Shown here: positions 8,354 to 46,258 of the stretch, in pieces
How the letters are laid out: the number at the start of each line of letters is the position of its first letter
How positions within the stretch are numbered: the stretch's first letter is position 1
Source: Salinigranum marinum
Lineage (GTDB): Archaea; Halobacteriota; Halobacteria; Halobacteriales; Haloferacaceae
NCBI RefSeq assembly: GCF_024228675.1
Contig: NZ_CP100461.1
Location: forward strand, 310,001-374,000
Direction of reading: 5' to 3'
Length of the DNA stretch: 64,000 nucleotides
The notes under the pieces: generated by a model
Databases searched by the model: none
What the model was told of the DNA's origin: nothing
What the model saw: the letters and a program-made list of their open reading frames with translations, nothing else
Made by a program: the position numbers and the translations under genes

Positions 8354-8821
8354 ATGAGTCGAATCCACGGCGTCGAAGTTCGTGATTTGCAGGTCAACAC
8401 CGACGAACGCGGTCACCTCGTCGAGGTGTTCCGAGACGACTGGGAGTTGTACGATCCAGAGCCGGCTATGTCGTACTACTCGCTGAGTTACCCCGGTGTC
8501 ATCAGGGCGTGGCACCGTCACCTTCGCGGACAGGTTGACCACTTCATCTGTCCACAGGGCCGCATCAAGGTCGGCATCTACGACGACAGAGATGACTCGC
8601 CGACACAAGGAGAGGTAAACAAATTCATCATCGGCGAACACAACCAGCGGGCCATACGGATCCCTGGTGACTGCTGGCACGGGTTCAAAGTCGTCGGCAA
8701 CGAGCAGGCGATTCTGCTGAACTTCCCGACTAACCTCTACGATTATGATGACCCTGATGAAGAACGGTTGCCACCGCATACGGATCAGATTCCTCTCGAC
8801 TGGGAGGAGCAACCACACTAA
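8354..8821 (+). CDS. rmlC: dTDP-4-dehydrorhamnose 3,5-epimerase
   Basis: 155 aa, starting MSRIHGVEVRDLQVNTDERG. The cupin motif GVIRAWHRHLRGQVDHFICP contains the catalytic His, and RIPGDCWHGFKVVG is the second conserved block. It epimerises C3 and C5 of the 4-keto sugar before RmlD reduction. It is slightly shorter than bacterial RmlC (~180 aa), as is common for the archaeal short type. A decayed second copy of this gene is at 28510-28890; the C-terminal stretch PDEERLPPHTDQIPLDW is identical in both. Confidence 0.92.
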   Translation: MSRIHGVEVRDLQVNTDERGHLVEVFRDDWELYDPEPAMSYYSLSYPGVIRAWHRHLRGQVDHFICPQGRIKVGIYDDRDDSPTQGEVNKFIIGEHNQRAIRIPGDCWHGFKVVGNEQAILLNFPTNLYDYDDPDEERLPPHTDQIPLDWEEQPH

Positions 8822-9624
8822 GTGGTTCAATCCCAAGATGACGATTAGCTTCTGAAGTATCTGTAGCAGTGGAGACAACAGAATAGTATCGACGATCGGT
8901 GGTGGGATACGAGATTCTACTCTGAAAGGATGGCAACTGGGATTCGCCGGTCTTTATCATGATGACGACGGTCAAAAAAGACCTCACCGAGTCTTTCGGA
9001 TGGTATAAATAACGCTGTGAATTTCCAGATTTTAGCTCAAACGTCATCTGAACGGGCGCAGCGCATGTGTCAACGACCCCAAAGCGAGCGCCGAACTTGA
9101 TGTTCGTCGGCAGTCACGTCGGTGACCGATCCTTTTCCGACCTGAAATAAGGGGCGACCTGTTCGTTCAGCGCTGGCAGGCCGCCGAATCTGAACCCGCA
9201 ACCGTCTAATTTGGGGGTAGAGGTTATTGAAAGGACCGATACAGGGCCGGGAGTGGCAACGACGCCGACAGTTCCGATCTTGAGACAGCCCCGCTCGCTG
9301 AGCGAGACCCCCTCCGTCACAGGCGTCGGATCTGTGCTCCCATCCGAATTATCCGGTTTGATTCCATCTCCCAAGACAACCTTCTGTGAAGGACCTAAAT
9401 AAAGATATTATAAACAGAGTATCAATAGCAATAGAATTTATGTCTAATATTCACTTATCTGGAACTTGACCGCATTCGAAGAAAGTCTCCAAGACTTGAA
9501 TTCGGACGAAATAGCACGTACTATGATATATCTAGTATTACCTGGCAAGTGACTTTTGTCGCCGACTCGATCACGAAAATCCGCTCGCCATCTGTCGAAT
9601 CTTGGACGAAATACCGTCGAACAA
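8822..9624. other. Gene-poor region with a possible Tat-substrate remnant
   Basis: Between 9114 and 9374 on the minus strand the open frame gives a Ser/Thr/Asp-rich start followed by VSLSERGCLKIGTVGVVATP. This resembles the N-terminus of a Tat-secreted haloarchaeal protein in which the first Arg of the twin-Arg motif is lost (compare [20 protein letters not shown] in the gene at 11374). No downstream domain follows, so it is probably the relic of an exported protein. The rest of the stretch shows no recognisable gene. Confidence 0.35.
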
Positions 9625-11374: not shown

Positions 11375-12439
11375 TGTAAGTGAAAAAAGAAAGTACCTAA
11401 TTGAATACTGTGTCTCAATTATTGAAATTGATTTCTTACTTGTTACGAGACAATCCGAGTCTCAGTAGGAACAGATCACGCCGTAATAGCCCGTAATCGG
11501 CCATCTTATCCGCTCAATAAGGATTTAGTGGATTAGTATTCGTCTCAGATTTATTGGGCAAATATGCCAAAATATAGTGAGAGATAATTATCATGGTTTA
11601 CTTCCAAGGGCTCAAATACCGATTCGATTGAGGATTCTCTGGCAGGTGCGCTTGGCGAATTCCGCATCGGTGCGAACGATCCCAGAAGAACGAACATCGA
11701 ACCGATCACCGTTGTGCGTGTTCTCGATCGGCGTCTCTGTTTCTGTGTGGCGCCGAACATCTAGTGAATCTCTTCAGGGTCGCAATCGGTTAGGGTCACT
11801 CCGAGCACTTGCCCGCGTATGACGTGCCCAGACGCGTCATTGAAAACCAGGCGAACACGTTCTTTTGATTCTGGGACCCGAGTAGACCTACATCTACGTG
11901 TCCACAATAGATCGACCGTACGACATCGTCGTGTGGGTGCAACTGATTTCGCAGGACGCCTCGTGGCGGAGTATCTCACGCAGTAGTACACTCCAGAGGA
12001 TGTCTTGGTGGTCGGAGTCCGGACCGTCTTGAGTCACTTGGAAAAAACTTGTTCAACGAAGCGTGGGACGATACCCCCCTGCGTGATTGGTAATGCGACC
12101 GAGCCAGGTGTGCAGAGGTCATCCCGACCGGTTCTGGGATCAGTGGCGCGGTCGGTGGGAGCGTCGTCGCAGAGGGAATCGGTCTGTTCGCGGCCGCGAT
12201 GTCCGGTGACTCCCTTCGCTCGGGTCTCCGTCGGTTCGTGTTTCCCGACCCAGGTGAGGGCCCAACGAGAGCGCTTCGATTGCCCGTCCGAAAAAAGGGT
12301 TTGGGACCTGTGCTCAACTCTCGGCGAGTTCTCCTCGGCGGTGGATGTCACTGGAACGGGAGACAGGAGTCTCTCGATGAGGGTGGTATAGACGTCCACC
12401 TTCCGATGACTTTTTGATACTATTCACGTTGTCATCTGT
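11375..12439. other. Gene-poor region upstream of the lipoprotein gene
   Basis: No confident gene. Plus-strand 12110-12230 reads EVIPTGSGISGAVGGSVVAE followed by GIGLFAAAMSGDSLRSG, a Gly-rich hydrophobic stretch that may come from a decayed membrane-protein gene. The neighbouring frames are shadows. The segment around 11375-11600 is AT-rich and is the probable promoter area of the leftward Tat-substrate gene. Confidence 0.3.
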
Positions 12440-12925
12440 ATGAACCGCCGGCGGACGCTCCACCTTTCGTGCTGTGGCCTGCTCTCGCTTCTCGCGGGGT
12501 GTAGCGACTTCGGGAGCCGTGCGCCGACGATGCACGAGGTCGGTGAGTCGTTCGTGGTCGGTTCCGCGAACCCGATCGAATACCGGGTGAACTTGGCCAT
12601 CGACACGGACCAGATGCCGAACGTTATCGATGGATTCGTGTTCGTCGAAGTGGAGTTCGAGAACCTCGCGACGCAGGCGCTCGATATCTACCCCGAGTTG
12701 TTCTCGCTGTCGGCCGCTGGCGGGAGTCAGAACGAGTATGTCCGTAACGAGACGACAACGCTGGTCAATCCGCTCGAGGCCCGTGCCCTTCAGCCCAACG
12801 AGTCCGGGGTGGGAGAACTCCTGTATCCGGTTCCCGACGCCGACGTGTTCTATCTGCTCGTCGAACCCGTTCGGCCGGTCGAACCGACGCCAGTCCACCG
12901 AGTTCGGCTCGACAACGCCCTGTGA
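12440..12925 (+). CDS. Secreted lipoprotein, unknown function (DUF4352-like fold possible)
   Basis: 161 aa. MNRRRTLHLSCCGLLSLLAG is followed by Cys, giving a lipobox (L-L-A-G-C) for membrane anchoring after export; the double Arg near the N-terminus would suit Tat export. The mature part is a beta-rich domain with FVFVEVEFENLATQALDIYP, a pattern seen in DUF4352/telomere-repeat-factor-like extracellular domains. The last ~35 codons and the 3' flank (12833-12948) are repeated in decayed form at 13748-13862, on the far side of the VapBC pair. Confidence 0.75.
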   Translation: MNRRRTLHLSCCGLLSLLAGCSDFGSRAPTMHEVGESFVVGSANPIEYRVNLAIDTDQMPNVIDGFVFVEVEFENLATQALDIYPELFSLSAAGGSQNEYVRNETTTLVNPLEARALQPNESGVGELLYPVPDADVFYLLVEPVRPVEPTPVHRVRLDNAL

Positions 12926-12982
12926 TCGATTCACCCCGGGAAGTAAATTATGGAGCACGTCTGATGCAGTGCCGCTAATGGC

Positions 12983-13378
12983 TCAACGGTATTCGTCGAC
13001 AGTAACTACCTTCTTCGTCTCGGAATGGGTGAGATCCCGGTCGTTCGAGACGACGGTCCCTCCGACGTCGCGTGCGACGGCCGCCACAAGAGCATCGATC
13101 GCAGTGAGTTGGGGTCCCCGTGGACCGATATCGTCTGCGACCTCAGCTGCCGTCACTGCCGTCTGTTCGCAAATCTCATAGATATCGGCCCACGAAACGT
13201 TCCGTTGCATCGCAGCCAGATCGGTCGGAGCCGTGCTGTGGACGTCCCCAAGAAGGAACTCGGTGAGGACTACCGACGGGAGTATAAATTCGTCGTCGGC
13301 GTGATCGAGCAGGTACTCTTTGGTGTCAATCACGCCGTCGTCGTAGTCGATCAAAAACGTCGTGTCGAGAACTCTCAT
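12983..13378 (-). CDS. vapC: PIN-domain ribonuclease toxin (VapC family)
   Basis: 131 aa, starting MRVLDTTFLIDYDDGVIDTK. The PIN acidic residues are visible as D5 and D12 at the N-terminus, E40 in VVLTEFLLGD, D93 in AIDALVAAVA, and the final D in VVSNDRDL. PIN toxins cleave RNA with a divalent metal. Its start overlaps the stop of the upstream antitoxin gene by 4 bp (ATGA-type overlap at 13375-13378), the usual layout of a VapBC operon. The module is flanked by repeated lipoprotein 3' ends. Confidence 0.85.
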   Translation of the reverse strand: MRVLDTTFLIDYDDGVIDTKEYLLDHADDEFILPSVVLTEFLLGDVHSTAPTDLAAMQRNVSWADIYEICEQTAVTAAEVADDIGPRGPQLTAIDALVAAVARDVGGTVVSNDRDLTHSETKKVVTVDEYR

Positions 13379-13623
13379 TCGGAGCGGCCCTGGGCCAGTT
13401 GCTCGATATTCGTTGCCGACTCCTTCTTTCCATCTTCGTGCACCTCGCGCATTTTCTCCGGACGGTCAGTTCCTTTGCCCGCACCGAAGCCTGCGAGGAG
13501 GTCTCGATCGTCCGAAAGAACGCGCTCCATCACGTCGTTGTAGCTCTCACCCTCTCGCTTCCGCCGATCGAGCATCTTTTTTACCCGCTTGCTCACTCGG
13601 ATGTGGTCGTCTGCACTCCCCAT
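13375..13623 (-). CDS. vapB: VapB-like antitoxin (ribbon-helix-helix type)
   Basis: 82 aa. DDHIRVSKRVKKMLDRRKRE and SYNDVMERVL fit the short beta-strand plus two helices of haloarchaeal ribbon-helix-helix antitoxins. The acidic and basic C-terminal tail (FGAGKGTDRPEKMREVHEDG) probably wraps the toxin. It is the first gene of the pair and overlaps vapC by 4 bp. Such proteins normally repress their own promoter; the AT-rich stretch at 13624-13685 is the likely operator and promoter. Confidence 0.75.
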   Translation of the reverse strand: MGSADDHIRVSKRVKKMLDRRKREGESYNDVMERVLSDDRDLLAGFGAGKGTDRPEKMREVHEDGKKESATNIEQLAQGRSE

Positions 13624-13747
13624 ATCACGTTAACGTGGGTGTTAACGCAACTTGTAGCTTCCGCTACTTGATTATTTTTCGCCGTCCTGGTGCACGTCGA
13701 CGCGTACGACGTTTTCGAGGGAGTCTCGCTCGGAGTCAAACAGCGGG

Positions 13748-13862
13748 TCCCCGATGCTGACGTGTTTTAGTTGCTCGTCGAGCCCGTTCGGCCGGTCGAG
13801 CCAACGCCGTCCACCGAGTGCGGCTCGACAACGCGCTGTGATCTATACACCGCGGGAAGCAA
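13748..13862 (+). pseudogene. Decayed duplicate of the lipoprotein 3' end
   Basis: About 115 bp aligns with 12833-12948 (end of the lipoprotein gene plus 3' flank) with a single-base gap and scattered substitutions; I estimate 85-88% identity by eye. In this copy the Tyr codon of DVFYLLVEPVRP has become TAG (13768-13770) and a base is missing near 13808, so it cannot encode the same tail. It lies on the other side of the vapBC operon from the intact copy. Confidence 0.8.
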
Positions 13863-13990
13863 ATCCATCAGCAAGGAGCGGATACTGAGTCCCAACGGTT
13901 CGGTGCAGTTGGTGGTGACGACCACTCGAAATCGGAGTTGGCTCTTTGTTGACTGAGGTGCCCCTGGAAGAGTAACTGGAGGATGGGGGA

Positions 13991-14366
13991 CACCAGTGTC
14001 GCGAGTGTATCACTCAAATGAAGACGGAAGACGAAAGCACACACCACCGTCGCGAGTGTAACAGTCGAAGTCGGTATCTGAGCAAGGAACTCACACACTA
14101 CCGTCGCGAGTGTAACATCCGGGTGTGGATTAGCTGGTTAACAGCTACCCCCACCGAAGGTCACGGAAATCCGTTGGGCCGGGTAAGAATGCAGAGCAAC
14201 ACGCGTTCACACCAGTCTGCGATCCGGTCCGTAGAAGGCGACTGGATACGACGCATGCACTCCACCGACAGTTACACTCGCGATAGAGGTGTGTCTCGCG
14301 TTCAGCGTTCGTTTGCCTGAGTCAGTTCCGTACTCCACTTCGGGTTTACACTCGCGAGTATGGTTA
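13991..14366. other. Candidate replication origin with five ORB-like repeats
   Basis: The core TCGCGAGTGTA occurs at 13999-14009, 14050-14060 and 14104-14114 on the plus strand and in inverted orientation at 14273-14283 and 14347-14357. The plus copies share a wider context (ca-c--c-gTCGCGAGTGTAaCa) and are spaced 51 and 54 bp apart. The set lies directly upstream of an orc1/cdc6 gene, and 14360-14460 is AT-rich and could be the unwinding element. This is the layout of haloarchaeal origins, in which each Orc1/Cdc6 recognises the repeats next to its own gene. No coding sequence is seen here. Confidence 0.75.
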
Positions 14367-14447
14367 ATATGAACCAAATTTGATTTCAGACTACAGAATC
14401 GTCCAATACCGTGTTATCAACACAAATACACACGCGGGATTACCCCG

Positions 14448-14480
14448 TGTTTTTATACTATGAAGAGGAGAGTATGGATT
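14448..14480 (+). promoter_or_regulatory. TATA box for a leaderless orc1/cdc6 transcript
   Basis: TTTTATA at 14451-14457 is centred about 27 bp before the ATG at 14481, the distance at which haloarchaeal transcription starts. This predicts a leaderless mRNA beginning at or next to that ATG and favours it over the in-frame ATG at 14460. Confidence 0.5.
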
Positions 14481-15707
14481 ATGACTGATGAGGAACTCGA
14501 CCGGGACCCGCTGTTCAGATACGAACAGCCAATTTTTGCTGATGAGGATCTCCTCAAGATCACCCACATCCCTGGTCCAGAGCGAATCGTCGGTCGTGAC
14601 CAGCACATGCAAGAAGTCGCGGATGCACTCAACCCAGCAATCTTTGGCCAGGAACCGACGCACCTGTTCGTGTTCGGAAAGACGGGGACTGGAAAGACTT
14701 TGACTTCGCGGAGTGTGAGCGAGCGGGTGGTCACAGAAGCGGCACGAGGCGACACGCGTGTTTCGACTGTGTTCGTCGACTGCGGTGAGCAGAACACTGA
14801 AGCCTCGGTCATCAAGACGATTGCCCGGCGGATCAACGATCCGAACCGAACGGGATTTACCGTACCTGAGCGGGGGCTCGCCACTGGCGACTATTACACT
14901 CGATTGTGGAAGGTTCTCGACAGCTGCACCGACGTAGTGATCATCATCCTCGACGAGATCGATATGCTTCAAGACGACGAGGTCCTCAGAAAGCTCTCTC
15001 GAGCGGGTGAGAATCGTCGAATATCCTCGTCGAACATCGGTATCATCGGTATCTCGAACAAAATCGATTTTCCCGAGCAGCTGACAGAGCGCGTCAAATC
15101 GAGCTTCGCACACGACGAGCTCGTCTGTCCACCGTACGATGCGAACCAGCTCCGCGAAATCCTCGAACATCGCCGCGATGCGTTTCAGGAAGGTGTGCTG
15201 ACGGATGACGTCATCCCACTCACCGCAGCCCTCGCAGCGCAGGAGCACGGGGATGCTCGCAAGGCGATCGACATCTTACGTAACGCTGGCCGCCTGGCGA
15301 CGAGGAACGGTGACGATCAGGTCACGGCTGAACACGTTCATGCCGCGAAAGAGAAGACAGAGGCTGATCGATTTGCCGAACTCATCGATGGTGCACCAAC
15401 ACAGGCGAAGCTCATTTTGTACGCGTTGACGCACCTCACGGAGTCACACTCGGAAAGCGAGTTCTCGACCAAGAAAATATTCAAGGCGTATCGAACGCTG
15501 GCCGAGACACTCGATGTGAAACCGCTGTCTGAACGGCGAGTTCAAGAGATTCTCAAAGAACAAGATTTTCTCAACGTGATTCAATCCGAGCGGCGTGGTC
15601 GTGGTCGAGGACGTGGGATGTACGCGACCCATCGGCTGCTCGAGGACGCACCGATCGTCAAGCGTGTCTTGCAACGTGATTCGAGACTATCAGAGATCGG
15701 TGAATAG
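14481..15707 (+). CDS. cdc6: Orc1/Cdc6 replication initiator
   Basis: 408 aa from MTDEELDRDPLFRYEQPIFA. The AAA+ Walker A (FGKTGTGKT) is at about 65-73 and Walker B (VIIILDEID) at about 153-161, with sensor residues after GIIGISNKIDFPEQL. The C-terminal ~110 residues (LILYALTHLTESHSESEF to RGRGRGMYATHRL) form a winged helix that binds origin repeats. Both domains are complete. It lies beside five repeats at 13991-14366 and should load replication machinery there. Haloarchaea carry many such genes on chromosomes and plasmids, so it does not say which replicon this is. Confidence 0.93.
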   Translation: MTDEELDRDPLFRYEQPIFADEDLLKITHIPGPERIVGRDQHMQEVADALNPAIFGQEPTHLFVFGKTGTGKTLTSRSVSERVVTEAARGDTRVSTVFVDCGEQNTEASVIKTIARRINDPNRTGFTVPERGLATGDYYTRLWKVLDSCTDVVIIILDEIDMLQDDEVLRKLSRAGENRRISSSNIGIIGISNKIDFPEQLTERVKSSFAHDELVCPPYDANQLREILEHRRDAFQEGVLTDDVIPLTAALAAQEHGDARKAIDILRNAGRLATRNGDDQVTAEHVHAAKEKTEADRFAELIDGAPTQAKLILYALTHLTESHSESEFSTKKIFKAYRTLAETLDVKPLSERRVQEILKEQDFLNVIQSERRGRGRGRGMYATHRLLEDAPIVKRVLQRDSRLSEIGE

Positions 15708-15839
15708 ATCCGCCCTCGTTGGTTCGCAGGTCTCGAGCGTTTACCCTCAATTTGGTACCCACTATGACTCATTACCTAACACGTGCCCACTATTGCCCAT
15801 CAAGACCAAGACACGAGGTGGGCTCGCTGTGGTCCGTGC

Positions 15840-16660
15840 ACTGAGCGACATGAACCCGCTCGAGTCTTTTTTGAACGCCCCCGAGCGCTCGACTCGGGGG
15901 GCTCGCTGCGCGCTTCGGCTCGCTCACGGTGTTCGTTCGCCTCCAGTGCTTACACCGAAGCGACGCAGTCGCTTCGAGCCTCCGCTCACTCTGTTCGCGG
16001 AGACTTCGCCCGCCGTCGTCGAGCGCCCGGCCCCGTTCAGTCCCACCCCTGCTCGTGTCGCTGGTCGGTGCGCGTCTCGGTGTGGTGGATATCGAGACTC
16101 CCCTGAGCGCTCAGTCGTCGCTCCACTCTCTAGTCGCTCAACGTCGACGCCTCGCCGCGCTTCACGGCTCGAATGGCCGCGGAACTCCGTTCCGCTCTCT
16201 CGCCGTTCGCTTCGCGGAACTCACTGCGTTCGTTCCGCGCTTCGCTCGCCTCCACGGAGCGGGGCCGATGAACGGCTGACGCCGTTCGCTTCGAGACGTT
16301 CGCTCCGGAAGACTCGCCATACTCGTCTTCCGTGCACCCACTCGCTGCACTCGTGGGAACTCCGCTCACGTCTCGCCCTGTTCGCGGCTACGCCGCTCAC
16401 CTCGTGGCGCTCACGATGTTCGCGCCACGCTTCGCTCGCACCTTCCCGGTGCGCCAGCAGGCAAGTGTGGTTGCGGTTGCGCCCCTGACGGGCCGAACCG
16501 CGAACCACCTTGCCGCTGGCCGCTCAGGCCCCCGCTCTCGGCGCGCGCGGCTGGTGTTTTCACTCCGAGGGCCGTCTCGCTCGCGCCCTCCGGGCGCGCG
16601 AAGGCGCGAGCGAGACGCGCAGTACGGTGCAGTGTCGGCGATGACTGGTCGTGTGTGGTT
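15840..16660. repeat. Low-complexity CGCT/TTCG-rich spacer, open in most frames
   Basis: About 800 bp built from imperfectly repeated units such as cgctcgcttcg, ctcactgttcgc and ggctcgctcac. Because the units lack A/T-rich trinucleotides there are few stops, so long ORFs appear on both strands. Their translations are Arg/Ser/Leu-rich and resemble no family, and they overlap each other. I treat it as a noncoding GC-rich spacer of a kind frequent between haloarchaeal genes, here unusually long and located between cdc6 and tfb. Confidence 0.6.
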
Positions 16661-16728
16661 GGAACTCAGGTGGAGCTGAGTGTCGCAGAAAGACGCGGTG
16701 GAGCGCGCCTTCGGTCAGGAAGTGACCA

Positions 16729-17775
16729 ATGGCTAGTACCAACGCAATCGGACAAGAAGGTTCGGACCGAGTCGACGAACAGACGCACAAACAGCGGACG
16801 AGACGGTGTGAGGAGTGCGGTGGACGGGTGGTTCGAGAGGCGATCGAGACGGTGTGTGCGGGGTGTGGGCTTGTCGTCGACGAGGACGCCCTTGTTCGAG
16901 GGATGAGCCCCAGTCTGCACAAACACGGCGAGGTGGGGAGCGGACCCGTTGAGTGGAGTCTGGAGATGACGACATCGCTTCGAGTCGATCGCGGCCTGCA
17001 CACGACGTTCTTTCTCTCTACCGATGGGTACGGGAACACGTTATCGACGGCGCAGAAGGACTTCTACGGGAGACTGCGGATGCGACACAAGCGCTTCCAG
17101 ATGGAGTCCAAACGAGCGATTCGGCTGAACGAGGGGTTGCGCGACATCCAGATGATCGTCGGGAACCTCGGGCTCCCAGGCTATGTGGCCGCGGACGCGG
17201 CGGCACTGTTGAAGCAAGCGTCAGAGGCGCGGCTCCCGGGTGGGCGGATGGCCTGGGAGGCGCTCGCGGCCGGGGCAGTCTATGTGGCGACGAGCCAGTC
17301 CGGGTTCAGACGGACGACGGAGGAGGTCGCGGTGCACGCAAAGACCTCTCACGAACGGGTGTGCGCGGCGGCGCGGAAGCTGCGCTGTGAACTTGGCTTG
17401 ATGGATGAAGTGCCTCCAACCCAGGCGTGGGCGGTCGACGCGGTCGTCGAAGTGTTGGGCGAGCGCGAGGGGATAGAGCTGGACGTGTGTCTCCAACTCA
17501 GACGAGCCGGCGAGTTCCTGCTCGATGTGGCCGACGGGGCGTGTCTCGGTCCGGGCACGGCACGTGTGACGATGGCGGCTGCGGCGGTGTACGCGGCCGA
17601 TCGGCTGACTGAGGGGAAGACGATAACTCAACAGGACGTCGCGGACGCGGCGAGTACAGTCGTGGCGACCTCGAAGTCGAAAGTGAGTGGCTACTCCCGG
17701 GAGGTGGTCGGTGCGTACGAGACGGCGTACGGGACGCGCGATGTCGAGGACGTGATGGCGAGTCGGCTGGCCTGA
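16729..17775 (+). CDS. tfb: Transcription initiation factor IIB (divergent TFB paralogue)
   Basis: 348 aa. The N-terminal zinc ribbon is C27/C30 (RRCEECGG) and C43/C46 (VCAGCGLV), followed by a B-reader/linker region with SPSLHKHGEVGSGPVEWSLE. Two cyclin folds follow (about 110-205 and 215-315: IQMIVGNLGLPGYVAADAAA, AWEALAAGAVYVATSQSGF, VTMAAAAVYAADRLTEGKTI). It recruits RNA polymerase to TBP-bound promoters. Haloarchaea have many TFBs that divide promoters among them; this one diverges from the canonical sequence, for example GLHTTFFLSTDGYGNTL in place of the usual swapped linker motif. Its 3' end is duplicated in decayed form at 19188-19501. Confidence 0.9.
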   Translation: MASTNAIGQEGSDRVDEQTHKQRTRRCEECGGRVVREAIETVCAGCGLVVDEDALVRGMSPSLHKHGEVGSGPVEWSLEMTTSLRVDRGLHTTFFLSTDGYGNTLSTAQKDFYGRLRMRHKRFQMESKRAIRLNEGLRDIQMIVGNLGLPGYVAADAAALLKQASEARLPGGRMAWEALAAGAVYVATSQSGFRRTTEEVAVHAKTSHERVCAAARKLRCELGLMDEVPPTQAWAVDAVVEVLGEREGIELDVCLQLRRAGEFLLDVADGACLGPGTARVTMAAAAVYAADRLTEGKTITQQDVADAASTVVATSKSKVSGYSREVVGAYETAYGTRDVEDVMASRLA

Positions 17776-17884
17776 GCAGGCCGGCTGGCGCCTCTTTTTT
17801 TGACCACCACCCCCGGTCCCAGCCCCCCTCCCCACCCACCGCTCCGTGCTCGCTCCCGATGGTCGCTGCGCGCGCAGCCACGAC
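17565..17884 (+). repeat. Long direct repeat, intact copy (3' end of tfb plus flank)
   Basis: This ~320-bp segment covers the last 70 codons of tfb, the terminator-like T-run and a GC-rich flank ending gctgcgcgcgcagccacgac. It recurs at 19188-19501 with scattered differences. The flank includes the palindrome gctgcgcgcgcagc. The two copies enclose the MNT-HEPN module. Confidence 0.85.
17785..17798 (+). terminator. T-run terminator after tfb
   Basis: A run of seven T at 17791-17797 directly follows the tfb stop and the short GC-rich ggccggctggcgcc. T-runs act as terminators for archaeal RNA polymerase. The same element is kept in the duplicate copy near 19415-19425. Confidence 0.5.
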
Positions 17885-18004
17885 CGTCCTCCGAGGATGA
17901 GCAAACCCGACGCTTGTGTGCTCTCGTCTCCATCCTCGTCACGTTTATTATCCGTTGTTGCATGTAATCAAATAGTGTCCGACTATATAAAACAAGGGAT
18001 AAAG

Positions 18005-18664
18005 GTGTGTTTACGACTCAATCCGGGAGACGACACGGCGATATTCAGAATCCGAGCAGCTGATGACGTGCTACGGTTGCTCGCCGACGCGCACGAGTCG
18101 GAGTTTACCATGAACACGCTCGCCACGGCCACCGAGCATAGCCGGTCGACGGTCTGGCGTGCCGTCAACCTCCTCGACGAACTCGGGGTCGTCACGATGC
18201 GTGAAACCCCACAACGGAAGTACGTCTCGATCAGTCACTCGGCGCTGCAGAAAGACGATCCGATCCTCGGTATCGAACAGCCCGAGTACCGCGCGCCACT
18301 CAGGGCCTTCGTCGAGCGAATCGAGGGAGCGCTCGGCGACGCAGACGACGTCTCACAGCTGGTCGGCGTCCTCGTGTTCGGGAGCGTTGCCCGTGGGGAG
18401 GCCGACCGGAAGAGCGACATCGATGTGTTCGTGCTCGTCGAAGGAGACCGGACCGTCGCACGCCGTGTCGTCTCGACGGTTGCGAGCGAGCTGGGCGAGG
18501 AGCCGTTCGACGGCGATCGGTACACCTTCGAACCGTTCGTCGAAACCAAAGCGAGCGCTTGTCGGGCTGACGAGAAACTCAAAGAGATGTTCCGAGAGGG
18601 GATTACCGTCCATGGCGGTGACGCCATGCAACGGGTTCGAACGGCGGTGTTGTCAGGTGAGTAG
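18005..18664 (+). CDS. wHTH-nucleotidyltransferase (MNT-type antitoxin)
   Basis: About 219 aa from the GTG at 18005 (VCLRLNPGDDTAIFRIRAAD), the point at which similarity to haloarchaeal relatives begins. The frame is open back to 17846, but that part lies in the repeated noncoding flank. A winged helix (residues ~20-85: EFTMNTLATATEHSRSTVWR, AVNLLDELGVV) precedes a minimal nucleotidyltransferase domain with GSVARGEADRKSDIDVFVLV, the G-S-x10-D-x-D metal site. In MNT-HEPN systems the MNT enzyme neutralises the toxin by transferring AMP to it. The partner gene follows 7 bp later. Confidence 0.82.
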   Translation: MCLRLNPGDDTAIFRIRAADDVLRLLADAHESEFTMNTLATATEHSRSTVWRAVNLLDELGVVTMRETPQRKYVSISHSALQKDDPILGIEQPEYRAPLRAFVERIEGALGDADDVSQLVGVLVFGSVARGEADRKSDIDVFVLVEGDRTVARRVVSTVASELGEEPFDGDRYTFEPFVETKASACRADEKLKEMFREGITVHGGDAMQRVRTAVLSGE

Positions 18665-18671
18665 CAACAGG

Positions 18672-19142
18672 ATGGAGACGCTGATCGACGAGGTACAGGC
18701 AGCCTTCGACCGGCAGCCCATCGACATCGAAGACGGGTTGGAGACGGACGAAGCAGATGTCCTCCAGCTCCGAAAGTCATGCCGACTACTCGCTGGGGCC
18801 GAGACGCTCCTGGAACAAGGATTCTATACGCTCGTCGTCGAAGCCTCGTTCGTTGCGATCGAGCGGGTGATCGAGTTCAAGCTTCTCGAGGGTGGTGTCA
18901 ACGCTCGAGATTTGCCTGGCACACATCCGGGTGTGTACACCGAAGCCGCTCGTCGTGGGATCCTCTCTCAACATGTCGCTGGAAATCTCCAGGACCTGTG
19001 GCGAAGCCACCGGGCGAAGACCTACTACCAAGACGGGCTCGCGACGAACGAACGCGCAAAGAAGGTGTTCGCCCTGGCCAGCGAAACCCATGACTTCGTA
19101 GTGAATCAGTCATCGAAGCGGCACGAGTGTCGGTGTGAGTGA
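18672..19142 (+). CDS. HEPN-domain toxin candidate of the MNT-HEPN pair
   Basis: 156 aa from METLIDEVQAAFDRQPIDIE. It is all-helical, with RKSCRLLAGAETLLEQGFYT and VVEASFVAIERVIEFKLLEG matching the core helices of a HEPN fold. LWRSHRAKTYYQDG near residue 118 is where the R-x4-6-H ribonuclease motif and adjacent Tyr target of such toxins are expected; the spacing here is unusual (RSHR), so activity is uncertain. It directly follows the wHTH-MNT gene. Both genes lie between the two ~315-bp tfb-derived repeats. Confidence 0.75.
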   Translation: METLIDEVQAAFDRQPIDIEDGLETDEADVLQLRKSCRLLAGAETLLEQGFYTLVVEASFVAIERVIEFKLLEGGVNARDLPGTHPGVYTEAARRGILSQHVAGNLQDLWRSHRAKTYYQDGLATNERAKKVFALASETHDFVVNQSSKRHECRCE

Positions 19143-19187
19143 GTTCATCGGAGCACCAGAACGGGTGTGCAGCCGGGGGGACGTTGC

Positions 19188-19501
19188 GGTGTGACCATCG
19201 CGGCTGCAACAGTGTACGCGGCAGATCGACTGATAGAGGGGAATATGATAACTCAATAGGATGTCGCGGATGCGACGAGTGCGGTCCTGGCGACGTCGAA
19301 GCGGAAGGTGAGTGGCTACTCTCAGGGATGGTCGGTGCGTACGAGACGAGAGACGGGACGCTCGAAATCGAGGACGTACTGACAGATCGGCTGGCCTGAG
19401 CGGGCCGGCTGGTTCTTCTTTTTTTGGCCACCGCCCGCACCCCCCTCCCCACTCACCGCTCCGTGCTCGCTCTCGGTGGTCGCTGCGCGCGCAGCCACGA
19501 C
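19188..19501 (+). pseudogene. Decayed duplicate of the tfb 3' end and flank
   Basis: Aligns with 17565-17884 over its whole length. It begins VTIAAATVYAADRLIEGNMI, then CAG has become TAG (19257-19259), and later a lost base shifts the frame around SGYSQ. The stop, the T-run and the gctgcgcgcgcagccacgac flank are still present. There is no zinc ribbon or first cyclin fold, so this was never a whole tfb gene here, or only its end was copied. Confidence 0.85.
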
Positions 19502-19517
19502 AGAATTAACTGTGCAA

Positions 19518-19985
19518 TCAGTTTCCGAGAAATTGGTTTAGTTCGTCAAACTCGGCGGGTGAGAGAATGAGTTCGGTGTCGAACGCATCGAATCGTCCGA
19601 AGTCGGCGTCGATCGTCAGCACGGTATTCACACCTTCTGCAATTGCCACCTGAGCGTAGTACCCGTCCCATGCCTCAACGTTCGCGTCGCCTGCATGAGA
19701 CAGAGACTCGTGGACAAGAGCCTCTGATACTCCATCGTACCAGTGAACTCGTTTCGCACTCAAGAAATTCTGAAGCAGTTTGGATGCTTCTCTATTCGAG
19801 TATCCGAGATGGTTCCGCATCACATGGTGCGCTCCGAGAACTGCGGTACGGGGAACAATCGCCTCAATTTCTCCCGCGACAGCATCACGGATGTACTCAA
19901 GTGCATTCTCTTGAACTGGTGTGTCAGCGTGGGCGAGAGCGATAACACCCACGTCGAACAGATACGGCTCAGTGTCGTCACTCAT
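19518..19985 (-). CDS. PIN-domain toxin (VapC-like)
   Basis: 155 aa from the ATG at 19985 (MSDDTEPYLFDVGVIALAHA). The longer open frame back to 20096 overlaps the antitoxin gene and is not used. The acidic set LFDVG, DGYYAQVAIAEG and TIDADFGRFD fits a PIN fold; the first Asp is D11. It overlaps the AbrB-type gene by 8 bp, as in a two-gene toxin-antitoxin operon. It begins just after the decayed tfb copy, on the opposite strand. Confidence 0.8.
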   Translation of the reverse strand: MSDDTEPYLFDVGVIALAHADTPVQENALEYIRDAVAGEIEAIVPRTAVLGAHHVMRNHLGYSNREASKLLQNFLSAKRVHWYDGVSEALVHESLSHAGDANVEAWDGYYAQVAIAEGVNTVLTIDADFGRFDAFDTELILSPAEFDELNQFLGN

Positions 19986-20262
19986 CGATTGTGTCTTTCG
20001 CACCTTTTCGGATGTTTCTACGGAAATCCTCGCTGATTGGGTCGGCAGTATCCGAGAGCGGTTTAGTGTCTCCCCTCTCCTTCGAGAACTCTGCAATCAT
20101 TTCGTTCATCCGACGAAGGACGTCTTCGGGGTTGTCTTCTGGCTCAACGACTGCTTTTCCGTTTTCTTCGTGGATGTCCACTTCTGTGCCGGGAGTGATC
20201 CCGAGACGATCCCGAATCTTCTTCGGCAGGACGATTCGCCCCTTCGAATCCACTTTGGTCAT
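19978..20262 (-). CDS. AbrB/SpoVT-family antitoxin
   Basis: 94 aa. TKVDSKGRIVLPKKIRDRLG and TPGTEVDIHEENGKAVVEP are the swapped-hairpin AbrB DNA-binding domain in its usual form. The helical tail (VLRRMNEMIAEFSKERG) is the likely toxin-neutralising part. The promoter should lie at 20263-20290, where tttaggtgggaaaagttatag contains a TATA-like AAGTTATA. The pair should be autoregulated. Confidence 0.85.
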   Translation of the reverse strand: MTKVDSKGRIVLPKKIRDRLGITPGTEVDIHEENGKAVVEPEDNPEDVLRRMNEMIAEFSKERGDTKPLSDTADPISEDFRRNIRKGAKDTIDE

Positions 20263-20279
20263 ATTCCCACTTTAGGTGG

Positions 20280-20759
20280 GAAAAGTTATAGTCGTTCTGC
20301 TCATGATTGAGAGACGACGGGGCTCGTCGAGACGTGGGGTCGACTTGCGCGGGCGCGGAGTCCCTTTCCTCACGGAGCGAACGGAGTGAGCGAGTAGGGG
20401 GGAGGAGCGCGTGCGAAGGGTTACAACCGGGCGCGCGACAGCCGTCTGACCGTCCATGGCGGGCCACAGACAGTCCACGAGGGCTGGCGTGCCAACGAGG
20501 CCACGGTGCGTTTCTCGGTATGGACGGGTCGCGGTCAACCGGCCCCGAAGTCGGATCCGTCGAAGCGAACGTGACGCCATGTGCCCCTCCGTCGCTCGGT
20601 GTCCACCGGGGGTAGAGTGAGTGGAGGACACCGACAGTTGAATTGCCGCTGGCGTCTGGCCCTGCGCGACAAGCCGACTGCGAGCGGGTGAGTCCCACCC
20701 GACGAACCGGCGTGCAAGCCCCGCCCTCAACGAGCGCGGCAGCGCGAGTACCCCGGGGG
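20280..20759. other. GC-rich region without a confirmed gene, downstream of tnpB
   Basis: Long overlapping frames on both strands are Arg-rich and overlap each other. The segment contains self-complementary pieces, such as gggtgagtcccaccc (20689-20703) and ggtgtccaccggggg with ggaggacacc (around 20600-20640). I cannot assign a protein. A structured RNA or IS-associated noncoding segment is possible, because it lies directly downstream of the TnpB stop on the tnpB strand. Confidence 0.35.
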
Positions 20760-20880
20760 AGTTGACCCGGGCGGAGTGAACTACCCCACCCTACCGCTCG
20801 TCTGACGGCTCACGCTTGAGAGTGGGGCTTCCTGTTTCCACGACGCGCTTTGCATCCACAACCGAGGACACAGGGAGCGC
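20740..20880 (-). ncRNA. Possible omega RNA / right end of the TnpB element
   Basis: In IS200/IS605-group elements the guide RNA of TnpB is made from the 3' end of tnpB and the element's right end. Here the 3' end encodes ETGSPTLKREPSDER and is followed by ggtggggtagttcactccgc and the foldable cccgggtcaactcccccgggg. The GGAAGCCCCAC...GTGGGGT pairing across the stop codon would form a stem. The boundary of the element is not visible, so this is inferred from family knowledge. Confidence 0.3.
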
Positions 20881-22014
20881 AGTCTCCACAGGCGTTGATT
20901 CGGAGCGTCCCGCTCCTAACCGCTTTGTGATACCGCGAAAAAGAATGTTCCATGCCGCGTTCGCGTCTCTATCCGCCTCGAACCCACACGCCGGACAGGA
21001 GTGTTCACGCACCCACAGCGGCTTCTCGGTCGAAACGCCGCAGGACGCACACTCTTTCGTCGTCCCTCTCGGATTTACGCCGACGAAGTGCGTTCCTTCC
21101 CGCTCGCACTTGTATTCGAGCATCCGCAGGAACGTCCCCCACGCCGCGCCTGCCCGGTTCCGCGAGTTGCCCGGCAGTTCGACCAACCCCTTCGCGTCCA
21201 AGTCCTCCACGGCCACGAGGTCGTACTCTCGGGCGTAGTAGGTTGAGAGTTTGTGGAGGAAGTCCCGCCGCTTGTTCTTCAGGTCGGCGTGGCGTTCGGC
21301 CACGACGCGGCGCTGTTTCTCCCAATTCGCAGACCCGTCTTCCTTCCGCGATAGGCTCCGTTGAGCGCGTTCCAATCGCTCGCGCTCGTCGGACAGGTCG
21401 AGGGATTCGACGGCGGTGCCGTCGGTGTCGTGAGCATACTTGAGAATCCCCACGTCGATGCCGACGCACTTCTCGGGAGTCTCAGGCCTCTCCGGTGGGT
21501 CGTCCGGGGTTTCGACACCGAGAATGGCGTACCACTTCCCGGTGGGTTCCTGCTTGACGGTGACGGTCTTAATGTCGGCGTCGTCGGGGAGGTCGCGGTG
21601 GAAAGTGAGTGGGATATCTCCGAGTTTCGAGAGCCACAGTCGCGTCCGACCGCTCGTGTTCTTGAGCTTGAAGCCGGATTGACTGTAGGTGAAACTGCGG
21701 TACTCGCCCGGTGCCTTCCACTTGAGCGTCCCGACGCGGTAGCCGTTCTCTTTGCGTCCACGAAGCGTCGAGAGATTGTCGTACAAGCGTTGAACGACTT
21801 TCTGAAGAACTTTCGAGTGAACGCTTTTCAGGTCACTCCACCACTTCTTGAGGCTCGGCAAGAGTTTCTGCTCGCTGTATGCCGAGGTGTTGTCAGTGCG
21901 GTTGAGACGGTGGAGGAAGTGGTTGTAGACCTGCCTACAGGTATCGACAGTCCACGCTAACTGTTCTTCGAGTGCGTCGGACGGTCGAAGTCGATACCTG
22001 TAGTTGTAGTTCAC
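20791..22014 (-). CDS. tnpB: TnpB, RNA-guided RuvC nuclease of an IS200/IS605-type element
   Basis: 407 aa starting at a GTG (NYNYRYRLRPSDALEEQLAW). It is complete. The RuvC-I Asp is in CVGIDVGILKYAHD (~190), the RuvC-II Glu in LVAVEDLDAKGLVELP (~272), and a zinc ribbon CASCG...CPACG (~327-346) is followed by the RuvC-III Asp in ADRDANAAWNI. TnpB cuts DNA next to a target-adjacent motif using an RNA from the element end and helps keep the transposon at its site. No TnpA gene is present, so the element depends on a transposase in trans. Its start overlaps the stop of the 39-aa gene (TCGTGAAC). Confidence 0.92.
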   Translation of the reverse strand: MNYNYRYRLRPSDALEEQLAWTVDTCRQVYNHFLHRLNRTDNTSAYSEQKLLPSLKKWWSDLKSVHSKVLQKVVQRLYDNLSTLRGRKENGYRVGTLKWKAPGEYRSFTYSQSGFKLKNTSGRTRLWLSKLGDIPLTFHRDLPDDADIKTVTVKQEPTGKWYAILGVETPDDPPERPETPEKCVGIDVGILKYAHDTDGTAVESLDLSDERERLERAQRSLSRKEDGSANWEKQRRVVAERHADLKNKRRDFLHKLSTYYAREYDLVAVEDLDAKGLVELPGNSRNRAGAAWGTFLRMLEYKCEREGTHFVGVNPRGTTKECASCGVSTEKPLWVREHSCPACGFEADRDANAAWNILFRGITKRLGAGRSESTPVETALPVSSVVDAKRVVETGSPTLKREPSDER

Positions 22015-26985: not shown

Positions 26986-27386
26986 TGACGGTCAGCGACG
27001 ACCACGTCCACGCGTGGAACCAGCCAGACGACCCTGACTGCCCTCAAGTGTTGACAACACCGGAGCAGGTACTGACTGGACTTCCACTCGGGTTAGCGAC
27101 GCTCGAAGTGCTCTGTGACACATGTGGTACCAGCATGGGTGAGGGAGCGGACGTGTTCGTGTACGCGTACCGGGCCGCAGAGGCACCGCGATGGTCCCTC
27201 GCGGGGTGTTACTGTGAGACGTGTGCGCCGTCGGGGATCAGAAAGCCGACGCTTGGGACGACTGAAGTACTCGTCAGCGCCCAGTTGGCGGTCGTGTCGC
27301 ATCCACGCGAACAGCGTCACAGTCTCTGTGTGTCCACGCCGACACTGCGGTCGTTCTCACCACCGACGCGAGGGTCCGCACCATGA
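26985..27386 (+). CDS. Cys-rich haloarchaeal protein, unknown function (copy 1)
   Basis: 133 aa from MTVSDDHVHAWNQPDDPDCP. The centre holds VLCDTCGTSMGEGADVFVYA and LAGCYCETCAPSGIRKPTLG, two CxxC pairs in a likely zinc-binding fold, with the last ~35 residues variable. A second copy at 30226 keeps both CxxC pairs and the block LTTPEQVLxGLPLGLATLE. Because the conserved block ends at QLAVVSxPxERRHS, the tail past it may be noncoding-like drift. It overlaps the Mrr gene by 4 bp. Confidence 0.65.
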   Translation: MTVSDDHVHAWNQPDDPDCPQVLTTPEQVLTGLPLGLATLEVLCDTCGTSMGEGADVFVYAYRAAEAPRWSLAGCYCETCAPSGIRKPTLGTTEVLVSAQLAVVSHPREQRHSLCVSTPTLRSFSPPTRGSAP

Positions 27387-28414: not shown

Positions 28415-28509
28415 CGGCTTGGGGAAGTCTGGTTGAGAGACGAGTCTGATTTGCTGCTTCGACGGGTCGTGTACAGGTCCGTAGAGCGAGTGGCGTAGTA
28501 TCGGACATC

Positions 28510-28890
28510 TTAGTGTGGCTGTTCGTCCCAGTCCAGTGGAATCTGGTCTGTGTGTGGAGGCAACCGTTCTTCGTCGGGATCTTCGTAGTCGTAGACGTTC
28601 GTCGGGGAACTCAGGAGAATCGCCTGTTCGTTGCCGATAAGTTTGAACCCGTGCCAGCAATCGCCGGGAATTCGGATCACCTGTTGGTTGTGCTCGCCGA
28701 TGACGAACTTGTTGACCTCGCCCCGTCTGGGGGGCGTCCCAGTCGTTATTATAGCCGACTTTGATCCGTCGCTGTGGACAGATGAAGGGATCGGTCTGTC
28801 CGCGGAGATGGCGGTGCCACGCTCTGATGACCCGGGTAGGACAAGAGAATAGTAGCTCCTCACTGGCTCGAGATCGTACTGATGTCGGGG
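28510..28890 (-). pseudogene. Decayed rmlC copy
   Basis: The minus strand reads YDLEPVRSYYSLVLPG, then in a shifted frame VIRAWHRHLRGQTDPFICPQ, then, back in frame, EVNKFVIGEHNQQVIRIPGD and CWHGFKLIGNEQAILLSSPT, ending DQIPLDWDEQPH. These pieces match the intact rmlC at 8354 block by block. The N-terminal ~35 codons are missing and two frame changes (about 28735 and 28815) break it. It is a remnant of a second rhamnose gene set, like the broken rmlA at 30772. Confidence 0.85.
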
Positions 28891-28931: not shown

Positions 28932-30089
28932 TCACGCTCGGTCAATCGCGCGTCGATACACGGTCTCTGCCTGCTCGGCCACCGTATCCCAGTCGAACCG
29001 GGTTGCACGCTCCGTCGGGTTCACCGGTGGACGCTCCCCTGCGAGTGCCCGATCGAGCGCCTCGGCGACGCCGTCGACAGTCGGATCGACGAGATAGCCT
29101 GCGTCTCCCAGCACTTCATCGGCAGCCGAGCTCGGGTGGTTCGCAGCGATCACCGTGCAGTCCGCAGCCATCGCCTCGGCGTACGTGATCCCGAACCCTT
29201 CGCGAGTCGAGGGTGAGGCGAAGACGCGTGCAGCGCGCATGTGCCCGAGGACATCCTCATACTCGTCTAAGAACCCGAGGAAGGTGACACGGTCCCCGTG
29301 ATCGAGTTGCTTCGCGTGTGCGTGTAGTTCGTCCGACTTCGGTCCGTCCCCAATGATGCCGAGTGTGATATCGTGGCGTGCGGCGACCCGGTCGAGCGCG
29401 TTGAGGAGAACGTCCACGCGTTTGTCCTCGATCAGTCGTCCCGCAAAGAGGACGTCGAACCCAGGTTGGCCGTCTGCTCGGTATGAGTCTGTCGGCAGTG
29501 GTGCGTTTCGGATCTGCCCGACGCCGATCCCGTTCGGCACGACATCGATTGCGTTTCTATCGGGACCGATGACGGCGAGTCTGTCGGCTGTGATCCCCGA
29601 GACGGCGACCGGGTGCTGTGGGGTTCGGGCGGTGACTCGTTCGATGAGCTTGCCACCGATGGCGAGGTTTCCGAGGTAGTCGTCCCAGTAGTCGCCCCAC
29701 ACTTCGTGCCAGGTGGTTACCAATGGTGTGTTCGTCAGGAGGGTGCAGAGTTTCGACGAGAGAACCGGGAAGTACGGGAAGACACTCGCGACGACGAGAT
29801 CATGGTCGTTGATGTGCGGTCGGAGCGTGGGAACAAGGTGTGCGGAGAAGTCGATGGCCTCAGTGATCGAGCGCTGGCCGTCGTTGTTGTAGAGGTCGAC
29901 GCCTGGGGCTGCCGCTCGGAGCGTCATTCCCTCGTAGGTGATTTCTTTCGGGCCGTCCCAGAAGTGCCGCCCGTAGACCGTGACGTCGTGACCTCGGTTT
30001 GTAAGACGAGTCCCGATTTCGTGTATGCGCTTTTCTGCACCGCCCTTGACGAACGGAAAGACGACGTTGGAGACGAAGCAAACACGCAT
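28932..30089 (-). CDS. GT4-family glycosyltransferase
   Basis: 385 aa, starting MRVCFVSNVVFPFVKGGAEK. The GT-B N-domain has GGAEKRIHEIGTRL, and the C-domain has FDVLFAGRLIEDKRVDVLLN near 225 and the EX7E motif in STREGFGITYAEAMAADCTV near 305. It fits an archaeal AglL/PimB-like mannosyl- or glucosyltransferase of surface-glycan assembly. It is high in GC, unlike the AT-rich GT genes at 1955 and 35957. A truncated, frameshifted paralogue is at 45546-46258. Confidence 0.88.
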   Translation of the reverse strand: MRVCFVSNVVFPFVKGGAEKRIHEIGTRLTNRGHDVTVYGRHFWDGPKEITYEGMTLRAAAPGVDLYNNDGQRSITEAIDFSAHLVPTLRPHINDHDLVVASVFPYFPVLSSKLCTLLTNTPLVTTWHEVWGDYWDDYLGNLAIGGKLIERVTARTPQHPVAVSGITADRLAVIGPDRNAIDVVPNGIGVGQIRNAPLPTDSYRADGQPGFDVLFAGRLIEDKRVDVLLNALDRVAARHDITLGIIGDGPKSDELHAHAKQLDHGDRVTFLGFLDEYEDVLGHMRAARVFASPSTREGFGITYAEAMAADCTVIAANHPSSAADEVLGDAGYLVDPTVDGVAEALDRALAGERPPVNPTERATRFDWDTVAEQAETVYRRAIDRA

Positions 30090-30225: not shown

Positions 30226-30618
30226 GTGCAGAGTTCGGTATGCGAGATAACTCGTAGAAAACCGTCTAATCAGGTTGATAACGAGTCCCTGCACCCATGG
30301 TACCTCCCAGACGAGTACGACCCCCATTGCCCGCAGGTGTTGACGACACCGGAACAGGTACTCATTGGACTTCCACTTGGGTTAGCGACGCTCGAAGCGC
30401 TCTGTGACACGTGTGGTACCAGCATGTATGAGGGAGGAGGCCTGTTCGTGTATGCGTACCGGGCCGTAGAGACACCCCGATGTTGGCTCGCGGGGTGTTA
30501 CTGTGAAACGTGTACACCGTCAGGGACTCGAAAGCCGACGCGCGGTACAACTGGAGTACTCGTCGGCGCCCAGTTAGCCGTCGTTTCGCTCCCGCAGGAA
30601 CGGCGTCACAGTCCCTAA
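30226..30618 (+). CDS. Cys-rich haloarchaeal protein, unknown function (copy 2)
   Basis: 130 aa from a GTG at 30226; the true start may be later, since similarity to copy 1 (26985) begins at NESLHPWYLPDEYDPHCPQV. CDTCGTSMYEGGGLFVYAYR and LAGCYCETCTPSGTRKPTRG keep both CxxC pairs. By eye the two genes are about 80% identical in DNA over ~320 bp. Unlike copy 1 it has no microprotein upstream and no nuclease downstream; the next gene is the broken rmlA copy. Confidence 0.6.
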   Translation: MQSSVCEITRRKPSNQVDNESLHPWYLPDEYDPHCPQVLTTPEQVLIGLPLGLATLEALCDTCGTSMYEGGGLFVYAYRAVETPRCWLAGCYCETCTPSGTRKPTRGTTGVLVGAQLAVVSLPQERRHSP

Positions 30619-45545: not shown

Positions 45546-46258
45546 ATGGACGTCGCCATCGTCTCCAACGTCTTCTTTCCCTTCGTCAAGGGCGGCGCCG
45601 AGAAACGAATCCACGAGATTGGCGCGCGACTCGCAAACGAGGGCCACGACGTGACCATCTACGGGCGGCACTTCTGGGACGCCCCTGAGGAGACGACCCA
45701 CGATGGAATAACGCTCCGAGCGGCACCCCCGGAATCGAACCGTACAACGAGGACGGTCAGCGCTCTATTACCGAGGCGGTCGACTTCGCTGCACGGTTCG
45801 TGCCAACTCTCCGACCGCACGTCGACGAACACGATCTCGTCGTCGCTTCCGTCTTCCCGTATTTTCCCGTTCTTTCGGTGAAGCTCTGGACCCTCCTTAC
45901 GGACACACCACTCGTGACTACCTGGCACGAAGTGGGGGGAAACTACTGGGACGAGTATCTTGGGAACCTCGCGTTTGGAGGCAAGTTGATTGAGCACGTC
46001 ACCGCTCGAACCCCGCAGCACCCAGTCGCCGTCTCGGCATTACGGCCGACAAGCTGGCGGAACCTGGTCCCACTAGAGAGAATATCGAGGTAGGCCCGAA
46101 CGGGATCGACGTCCAGCAAATCCAGGACGCACCGCTCCCACCAACTGTCAGGAAAACGACCACCAGCAGTCCCGACAGAACGTGCAGCACGATTCGACTG
46201 GGATACGGTTACGGTGCAGGCAGAGAGTGTATATCAACGAGTGGCCGACAGAAAATAA
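45546..46258 (+). pseudogene. Decayed GT4 glycosyltransferase, internally deleted
   Basis: Reads MDVAIVSNVFFPFVKGGAEK and RIHEIGARLANEGHDVTIYG, then shifts frame near 45730. It continues TLRPHVDEHDLVVASVFPYF and WDEYLGNLAFGGKLIEHVTA and shifts again near 46040. The next frame gives GPNGIDVQQIQDAPLPPT, then jumps to ARFDWDTVTVQAESVYQRVA and DRK plus a stop. The pieces follow the intact GT4 at 28932 in order, but ~150 residues covering the donor-binding site are missing. It lies 115 bp from the start of the divergent sulfatase gene. Confidence 0.85.

Follow-up and report, generated by a model that had tools for sequence, protein, structure and literature searches.

Displaced host-gene ends behind toxin-antitoxin-like and homing endonuclease modules at haloarchaeal tfb and RPA-like genes

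How does a selfish gene module come to lie directly behind an intact host gene, with a second copy of that gene's 3' end on its far side? The question is raised by a stretch of 64,000 nucleotides from the archaeon Salinigranum marinum (NZ_CP100461.1, positions 310,001 to 374,000; hereafter the window), which is part of a 4.0-Mb contig (C1) in a genome totalling 4.9 Mb. Here, a two-gene module resembling a toxin-antitoxin (TA) system stands behind a tfb gene and is followed by a decaying copy of the tfb 3' end. How TA modules move when neither an integrase nor a transposase is involved is still poorly understood. Comparisons with other genomes suggest that selfish genes in haloarchaea have repeatedly taken up a position behind host genes in this manner. 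The features concerned are the following, numbered from the first nucleotide of the window.

16729-17775, plus strand: tfb host gene, a 348-aa open reading frame (PF00382, 45.9 bits, above cut-off)
17564-17884, plus strand: proximal repeat copy, holding the last ~70 tfb codons, a T-rich terminator-like stretch and a GC-rich element
17818-17885, plus strand: first copy of the ~68-bp GC-rich element, closing the proximal repeat, where the module joins on its left side; found with unchanged boundaries in many genomes
17975-18664, plus strand: nucleotidyltransferase with a helix-turn-helix (HTH), MNT-like antitoxin candidate, 229 aa, GTG start (PF01909, 35.6 bits; HTH_11, 26.2 bits)
18657-19142, plus strand: 161-aa partner protein, HEPN-like toxin candidate, GTG start (no family match)
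19177-19501, plus strand: distal repeat copy, the displaced and decaying tfb 3' end (gap-free match from 19189)
19435-19501, plus strand: second copy of the ~68-bp element, at the end of the distal repeat

The two tfb ends (17564-17884 and 19189-19501) are 82.2% identical over 321 aligned columns (E value about 1e-90), so that the direct repeat around the module, first pointed out in a sequence-only reading of this DNA, is real. In local alignment the distal homology reaches back to about 19177, i.e. 34 nt past the stop of the second module gene. The host 3' end is thus present twice around the module, with the proximal copy in frame with tfb, as in mobile open reading frames that duplicate the C-terminus of their host. 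The coding part of the distal copy contains an in-frame TAG and a 1-nt deletion that shifts the frame, both as previously read, and this copy is decaying. With three other tfb genes for polarity, changes fall on the distal copy at 24 sites and on the proximal copy at 11, while at 6 sites both differ and 3 are undecided. In end-to-end alignment, the window tfb has a DNA identity of 81% to a tfb on G001:C4 and of 78% to one on G000:C3; a search for named relatives of its protein gave none.

The module had been labelled MNT-HEPN, a name that is only partly borne out. The 229-aa protein scores above the cut-off of PF01909, which makes it a nucleotidyltransferase, and carries its HTH at the N-terminus (its GTG start was placed by homologue length). 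It scores only 27.1 bits against the MntA model NF047752, which has a cut-off of 60, and hence falls outside MntA. The 161-aa partner has no match in Pfam (1e-3), NCBIfam or PADLOC (0.01), and because it matches no family model the name HEPN is our assumption, based on the layout of such gene pairs. What does speak for the label is that the two genes, which overlap by 8 nt in the window, are also called, as a 229/161-aa pair, at several homologous loci, including G001:C3 and other genomes of the family (gene calls throughout come from a home-made open-reading-frame score), i.e. an overlapping two-gene operon is kept together across genomes, as expected of MNT-HEPN. The pair may be an active toxin-antitoxin. 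According to Pfam the module holds only the nucleotidyltransferase and the unmatched protein, and no endonuclease gene.

The same layout occurs a second time in the window, around a vapBC module, as had also been noted:

12440-12925, plus strand: host gene, 161 aa, weakly DUF4352-like (PF11611, 20.8 bits, under cut-off)
12829-12948, plus strand: proximal copy of the direct repeat, consisting of the host 3' end plus 23 nt
12983-13378, minus strand: VapC-like PIN protein (PF01850, 37.1 bits)
13375-13623, minus strand: VapB-like antitoxin, VAPB_antitox (PF02697, 40.5 bits)
13746-13864, plus strand: distal copy of the repeat; third codon positions account for 10 of the 11 coding differences

These copies (12829-12948 and 13746-13864) are 86.7% identical over 120 columns, and their differences at codon positions 1, 2 and 3 (1/0/10, with 32 sites each) show a very strong third-position bias. 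The ~68-bp element is absent here. Relatives of the host gene were found in only 3 other genomes of 167, all as distant matches, and therefore this case offers no empty site.

How widely the layout occurs could be followed through the element. Its exact core, CCGCTCCGTGCTCGC-N2-30-GCTGCGCGCGCAGCC, is present in 73 of 167 genomes of one haloarchaeal family (0 for a reversed-pattern control), a count in which degenerate elements are missed and which inflates the conservation of the core. In a named collection, among the matches listed, there are at least 80 element loci, all archaeal, with 79 in haloarchaea and 1 in the uncultured archaeon A07HR60. The element has a sharp 3' boundary across loci (the comparison across family genomes scored two candidates per genome) and is conserved far better than the genes it follows. 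After removal of duplicates 120 element sites remained, of which 114, a count that includes some displaced remnants, lie directly downstream of RPA-like (100) or tfb (14) coding sequence and 6 do not; at 105 of the 120, an open gene ends 60-170 nt before the end of the element pattern. The RPA-like host gene has an OB-fold domain (PF01336), and the gene families bearing the element are multi-copy. The element may have a role in insertion. Other identities considered for it were set aside: a viral source (0 matches to the exact pattern in viral_contigs), a known RNA family (no Rfam match in 12000-21000) and a covarying RNA structure (among 47 elements, 0 of 10 predicted pairs have changes on both sides), the last test being weak either way since the search pattern fixes the paired bases.

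A direct repeat of the gene end or the element within 6 kb downstream was found at 15 of the 120 sites. Host coding sequence is part of five of these repeats (the window, L064, L067, L068 and L142), while six (L071, L116, L143, L146, L157 and L176) consist of an element variant only, behind an endonuclease gene. The remaining repeats come from another tfb (L121, L163), from another OB-fold gene (L145) or from the element only (L155). Among 37 further element sites outside the family set three have a repeat, with a coding remnant at L258 and L262 and just the 25-bp core at L206; because their inserts are 78.7% alike over 1851 bp, L258 and L262 are counted as one event. There are, then, probably six independent element loci, window included, with a displaced host 3' end behind a module. 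Outside the window, the modules are the following, each behind an RPA-like gene.

L068: AbrB-PIN (PF04014, PF01850)
L142: Fic (PF02661)
L067: LAGLIDADG; same block in L069
L064: HNH
L258/L262: HTH and nucleotidyltransferase; at L262 the HTH has Pfam matches, and the second protein has none and is presumably nucleotidyltransferase-like

An endonuclease thus lies within the module at L064 and L067. L069 belongs to another genus and is practically identical to L067 from the middle of the RPA-like gene through the LAGLIDADG module and beyond, whereas the 5' parts of the two genes are only 60-83% alike in windows; to judge from this pattern, the block is a recent exchange with its breakpoint inside the gene.

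At the loci with displaced ends an open proximal host gene is paired with a distal piece that comprises its 3' end only, which bears on the possibility that the second tfb end is what remains of a complete gene. There would then have been two tandem tfb genes, and the module would have come to lie between them or have replaced the front two thirds of the second. The multi-copy nature of the element-bearing families agrees with this, as does the tree of the window tfb copies, which are sisters with the distal one on a longer branch; moreover, in 24 of the 118 stretches downstream of elements a divergent tfb (about 28-35% amino acid identity to the window tfb) follows the RPA-like gene within 6 kb. 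Yet none of the 118 downstream stretches has a second gene of the host type (at least 150 aa, E value at most 1e-10), and what is left over, both at the six element loci and at the two others, is in each case a 3' end that starts near the last gene of the module, which random decay of a second gene would be unlikely to produce. One further locus (L343, below) also has an empty site with a single gene. Tandem duplication of whole genes, which had been named as the finding that would overturn the insertion of modules at 3' ends, is therefore disfavoured, and as an explanation of the tfb locus in the window we consider it unlikely.

The junctions are constant on one side only. In every remnant case behind an element the left junction is the 3' end of the element, while the starts of the remnants vary (9-57 nt behind the last gene of the module at the window, L068, L142 and L343). 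The constant left junction and the sharp element boundary would be expected of a site-specific recombinase, or a circular intermediate, acting at the element, with the repeats as attachment sites. Repeat lengths and starts differ between cases, however, the remnant match at L142 ends before the element, no recombinase is found among the called genes between the repeats of the window tfb locus, L068, L142, L067 and L064, and both the vapBC and the L343 case lack the element, which together make this reading very improbable.

What the remnants reveal about their own origin differs between loci. A case of insertion is L343, where a PIN gene lies between a DUF7112 (PF23424) gene and a second, 84-bp copy of that gene's end (98.8% identity), without the ~68-bp element. 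In G011, of the same genus, the DUF7112 gene lies next to the downstream gene, and the one gene end present there is about equally like both L343 copies. G011 therefore has the empty site, and L343 is an insertion with duplication of the gene end.

Pooled over seven loci, host end and remnant differ at 43, 32 and 93 of 282, 284 and 287 sites at codon positions 1, 2 and 3 (p 1.1e-8), and from this third-position bias, in the pooled loci as well as in the vapBC case, it follows that many remnants had diverged as working genes. The L064 remnant is 90.4% identical over 146 columns to RPA genes of another type, compared to 83% to its own proximal gene, and by these similarities the L064 copies are of different gene types. 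Judged from the proxy parents L127 and L066, the L064 junction falls in 8 nt, CCAGAGCG, shared by a small zinc-protein gene and the RPA gene. At L067 the two ends have different nearest relatives. The diverged remnants, together with the remnant of another lineage at L064, would fit a replacement of 3' ends, as originally proposed.

A number of observations weigh against such a replacement, and against parts of the mechanism preferred below. L142 supplies 76 of the 168 pooled differences (22/19/51 remain without it), and an approximately unbiased (AU) test does not reject sister copies at L142 (p 0.83) or at L067 (p 0.12), while the L068 copies are sisters (98). Junction microhomology was seen in one case only, and there from proxies. 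L343 points to duplication, not replacement, because its copies are practically identical. As for the window itself, the tfb copies are sisters (99/87, the distal one on the longer branch), their differences by codon position (13/7/18, p 0.10) have a weak bias, and the coding changes at positions 1/2/3 are 7/6/9 in the distal and 4/1/5 in the proximal copy, i.e. without codon bias in the former; an empty site for the tfb locus was looked for and none was found. Since the copies are sisters and the distal one lacks codon bias, a local duplication of the tfb end fits as well as a foreign donor. Duplication at entry and a donor from a close lineage would thus both suit the tfb case, and a foreign 3' end goes beyond the data.

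Taking these results together, the explanation towards which we lean, with somewhat more confidence than doubt, is insertion of the module behind the gene, with the 3' end duplicated or replaced, by way of one homologous and one microhomology junction. A two-gene selfish module would enter directly behind tfb, which would keep, or receive, a complete 3' end with the ~68-bp element, and a second tfb 3' end would be left behind the module to decay. The homologous side of the join would lie within the 3' part of the gene and the element, and the illegitimate, microhomology-type side would be where the module ends and the host 3' part resumes at an arbitrary point. The source might be a donor molecule that already carries gene end and module, or template switching on another copy of the genome. 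One homologous and one illegitimate junction would lead to a constant left junction (as a property of the donor or the break) and variable remnant starts, and would also account for the microhomology at L064 and for copies being identical in some cases and diverged in others. The recombination pathway is one that we infer; Haloferax volcanii is polyploid (PMC2700283), and its breaks are repaired either through homologous recombination or through microhomology-mediated end joining (PMC7776575).

Whether the break might be provided by a homing endonuclease is a question raised by the genes behind the element. At 23 of the 120 sites the first called gene is a homing endonuclease (18 HNH, 5 LAGLIDADG; the labels come from phmmer with two seeds from the same set, with Pfam run on one of each kind, giving PF18780 'homing endonuclease associated repeat' for HNH and PF00961 for LAGLIDADG), always co-directional and starting 7-152 nt away. 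The other first genes are tfb (5), MNT (2), AbrB (2), PIN (1), DUF5615 (1) and Fic (1), with 81 sites unclassified and 4 without a gene. At these loci 21 of 48 near co-directional genes encode endonucleases, versus 1 of 605 other genes (p 2.6e-25), and at the 37 element sites outside the family set HNH genes occur in 7 of the 34 with enough downstream sequence. Because of this hotspot, endonuclease-driven entry is attractive: the enzyme, acting in trans or since lost, would cut the element or gene end of module-free alleles, and TA modules would enter by repair, in the way that mobile open reading frames of fungal mitochondria duplicate C-termini (PMC3630166). On the other hand, the window module has no endonuclease gene, the elements beside endonuclease genes are intact, which leaves self-protection unexplained, and the vapBC and L343 cases have no element. 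In a test for co-conversion, sharing an endonuclease type did not make host 3' ends significantly more alike than the gene body predicts (the observed value was reached in 48 of 500 label shuffles). For the tfb locus in the window, homing is in our view decidedly unlikely. At L071, L116, L143, L146, L157 and L176 the endonuclease gene is followed by the variant element mentioned above, with the core GCTCCCGGCC...GGTCGGCCGGCAGCC in most, and often then by a small protein of zinc type; perhaps the variant is a protected site.

A broader proposal, which we regard as speculative and rather doubtful, would have free-standing homing endonucleases dock at or cleave the element throughout the haloarchaea, with the same site and repair route used by TA, Fic and other selfish genes as well, such that each entry would bring a new host 3' end and push the old one downstream. 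With endonucleases beside about one in five elements, homing, TA entry and microhomology repair could be studied at a single haloarchaeal site. The displaced gene ends, for their part, may serve as datable insertion scars, in which the older end, the foreign end and the junction are readable from the DNA.

The sequence-only reading had gone further and suggested a general route by which TA modules enter genes. The layout does recur with other hosts and other modules, but a TA-wide rule does not follow from it. With repeats of at least 60 bp (E value 1e-6) sought in 1.5-kb flanks, 1 of 22 MNT-HEPN, 4 of 30 VapB and 3 of 30 PIN loci had flanking repeats compared to 2 of 30 Usp control loci, i.e. 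there is no clear enrichment at TA loci in these small samples, the TA-centred loci being the best-scoring 30 of many per family. These figures still include L055, L312, L342 and L377, whose repeats are read as tandem relatives, and L383, a contig-edge artefact (by gene calls and positions). At L317, 98% identity over 104 bp was found around a PIN gene, with no clear host gene. Attachment sites of the tRNA type were considered and set aside, since a check of seven flank-repeat loci with ARAGORN gave no tRNA. The layout is neither unique nor TA-specific: homing endonucleases are included, and most cases lie behind element-bearing RPA-like or tfb genes. What is general is the host-gene 3' end as a settling site, and not TA modules as such.

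The supposition that this route was undescribed needs to be narrowed in a similar manner, given that two known systems share its logic. Mobile endonuclease reading frames duplicate the C-terminus of atp6 in Allomyces and of atp6, atp9, cox2 and nad3 in Glomus (PMC3630166), and there, as here, a selfish gene stands behind a host gene with the native 3' end displaced downstream of the module. In the fungal cases the module carries an endonuclease, and the inserted end is foreign by phylogeny, expressed and read by the host (PMC3630166), whereas the window module is TA-like and without an endonuclease, its host is an archaeal tfb and the copies are sisters. Effector-immunity modules likewise displace effector 3' ends, in type VI secretion clusters of Vibrio and in Rhs and contact-dependent inhibition (CDI) loci (PMC5361080), and they resemble the present case in having a toxin-antitoxin-like pair, one homologous anchor and an old 3' end that is pushed downstream. 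The host gene in those loci is itself the toxin and its 3' end is exchanged, whereas here the product, a transcription factor or RPA-like protein, keeps its own C-terminus. Homology-facilitated illegitimate recombination has been proposed for the Vibrio modules (PMC5361080) and is described for transformable bacteria and Escherichia coli conjugation (PMC3240628). With its one homologous and one illegitimate junction it would give the layout seen here, although it is a laboratory process that is not known from haloarchaea, and junction microhomology was seen at one related locus only in our data. A title-level search covering few subscription journals met no report that places TA modules or endonucleases behind RPA-like or tfb genes of haloarchaea.

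Some further observations concern the surroundings of the window tfb and of related gene ends. An Orc1/Cdc6 gene (14460-15707) lies directly upstream of tfb, and the GC-rich stretch before tfb (15870-16730) is similar to what lies upstream of other tfb and RPA-like genes. In the same genome, at L028 (8725-9396, minus strand, G000:C2), a tfb breaks off at about codon 181 and runs on into a tail, apparently joined at a shared ALAA stretch; by eye, this tail looks as if taken from where another plasmid protein ends (compare L069, 8745-9074), and behind it come an HTH gene and one of PemK type (PF02452, just under cut-off). L025 (6682-12811, G001:C3) is a TA-rich patch around another tfb end, comprising a TnpB element, an MNT-HEPN pair, a second TnpB, a tfb 3' half with the element and a DUF5615/DUF433 pair. 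Behind the distal copy in the window, a neighbouring TA system follows on the opposite strand:

19518-20018, minus strand: PIN-like protein, start uncertain (TIGR00028, 26.6 bits, under cut-off; no Pfam match at 1e-3)
19978-20262, minus strand: AbrB/MazE-type antitoxin (PF04014, 53.3 bits; TIGR01439)

The window also contains two inverted repeats (29494-30076 and 45559-46139, 77% over 583; 8492-8822 and 28509-28836, 78% over 331) and a second direct repeat (27028-27327 and 30317-30616, 84% over 300 bp), which holds two related reading frames of ~130 aa.

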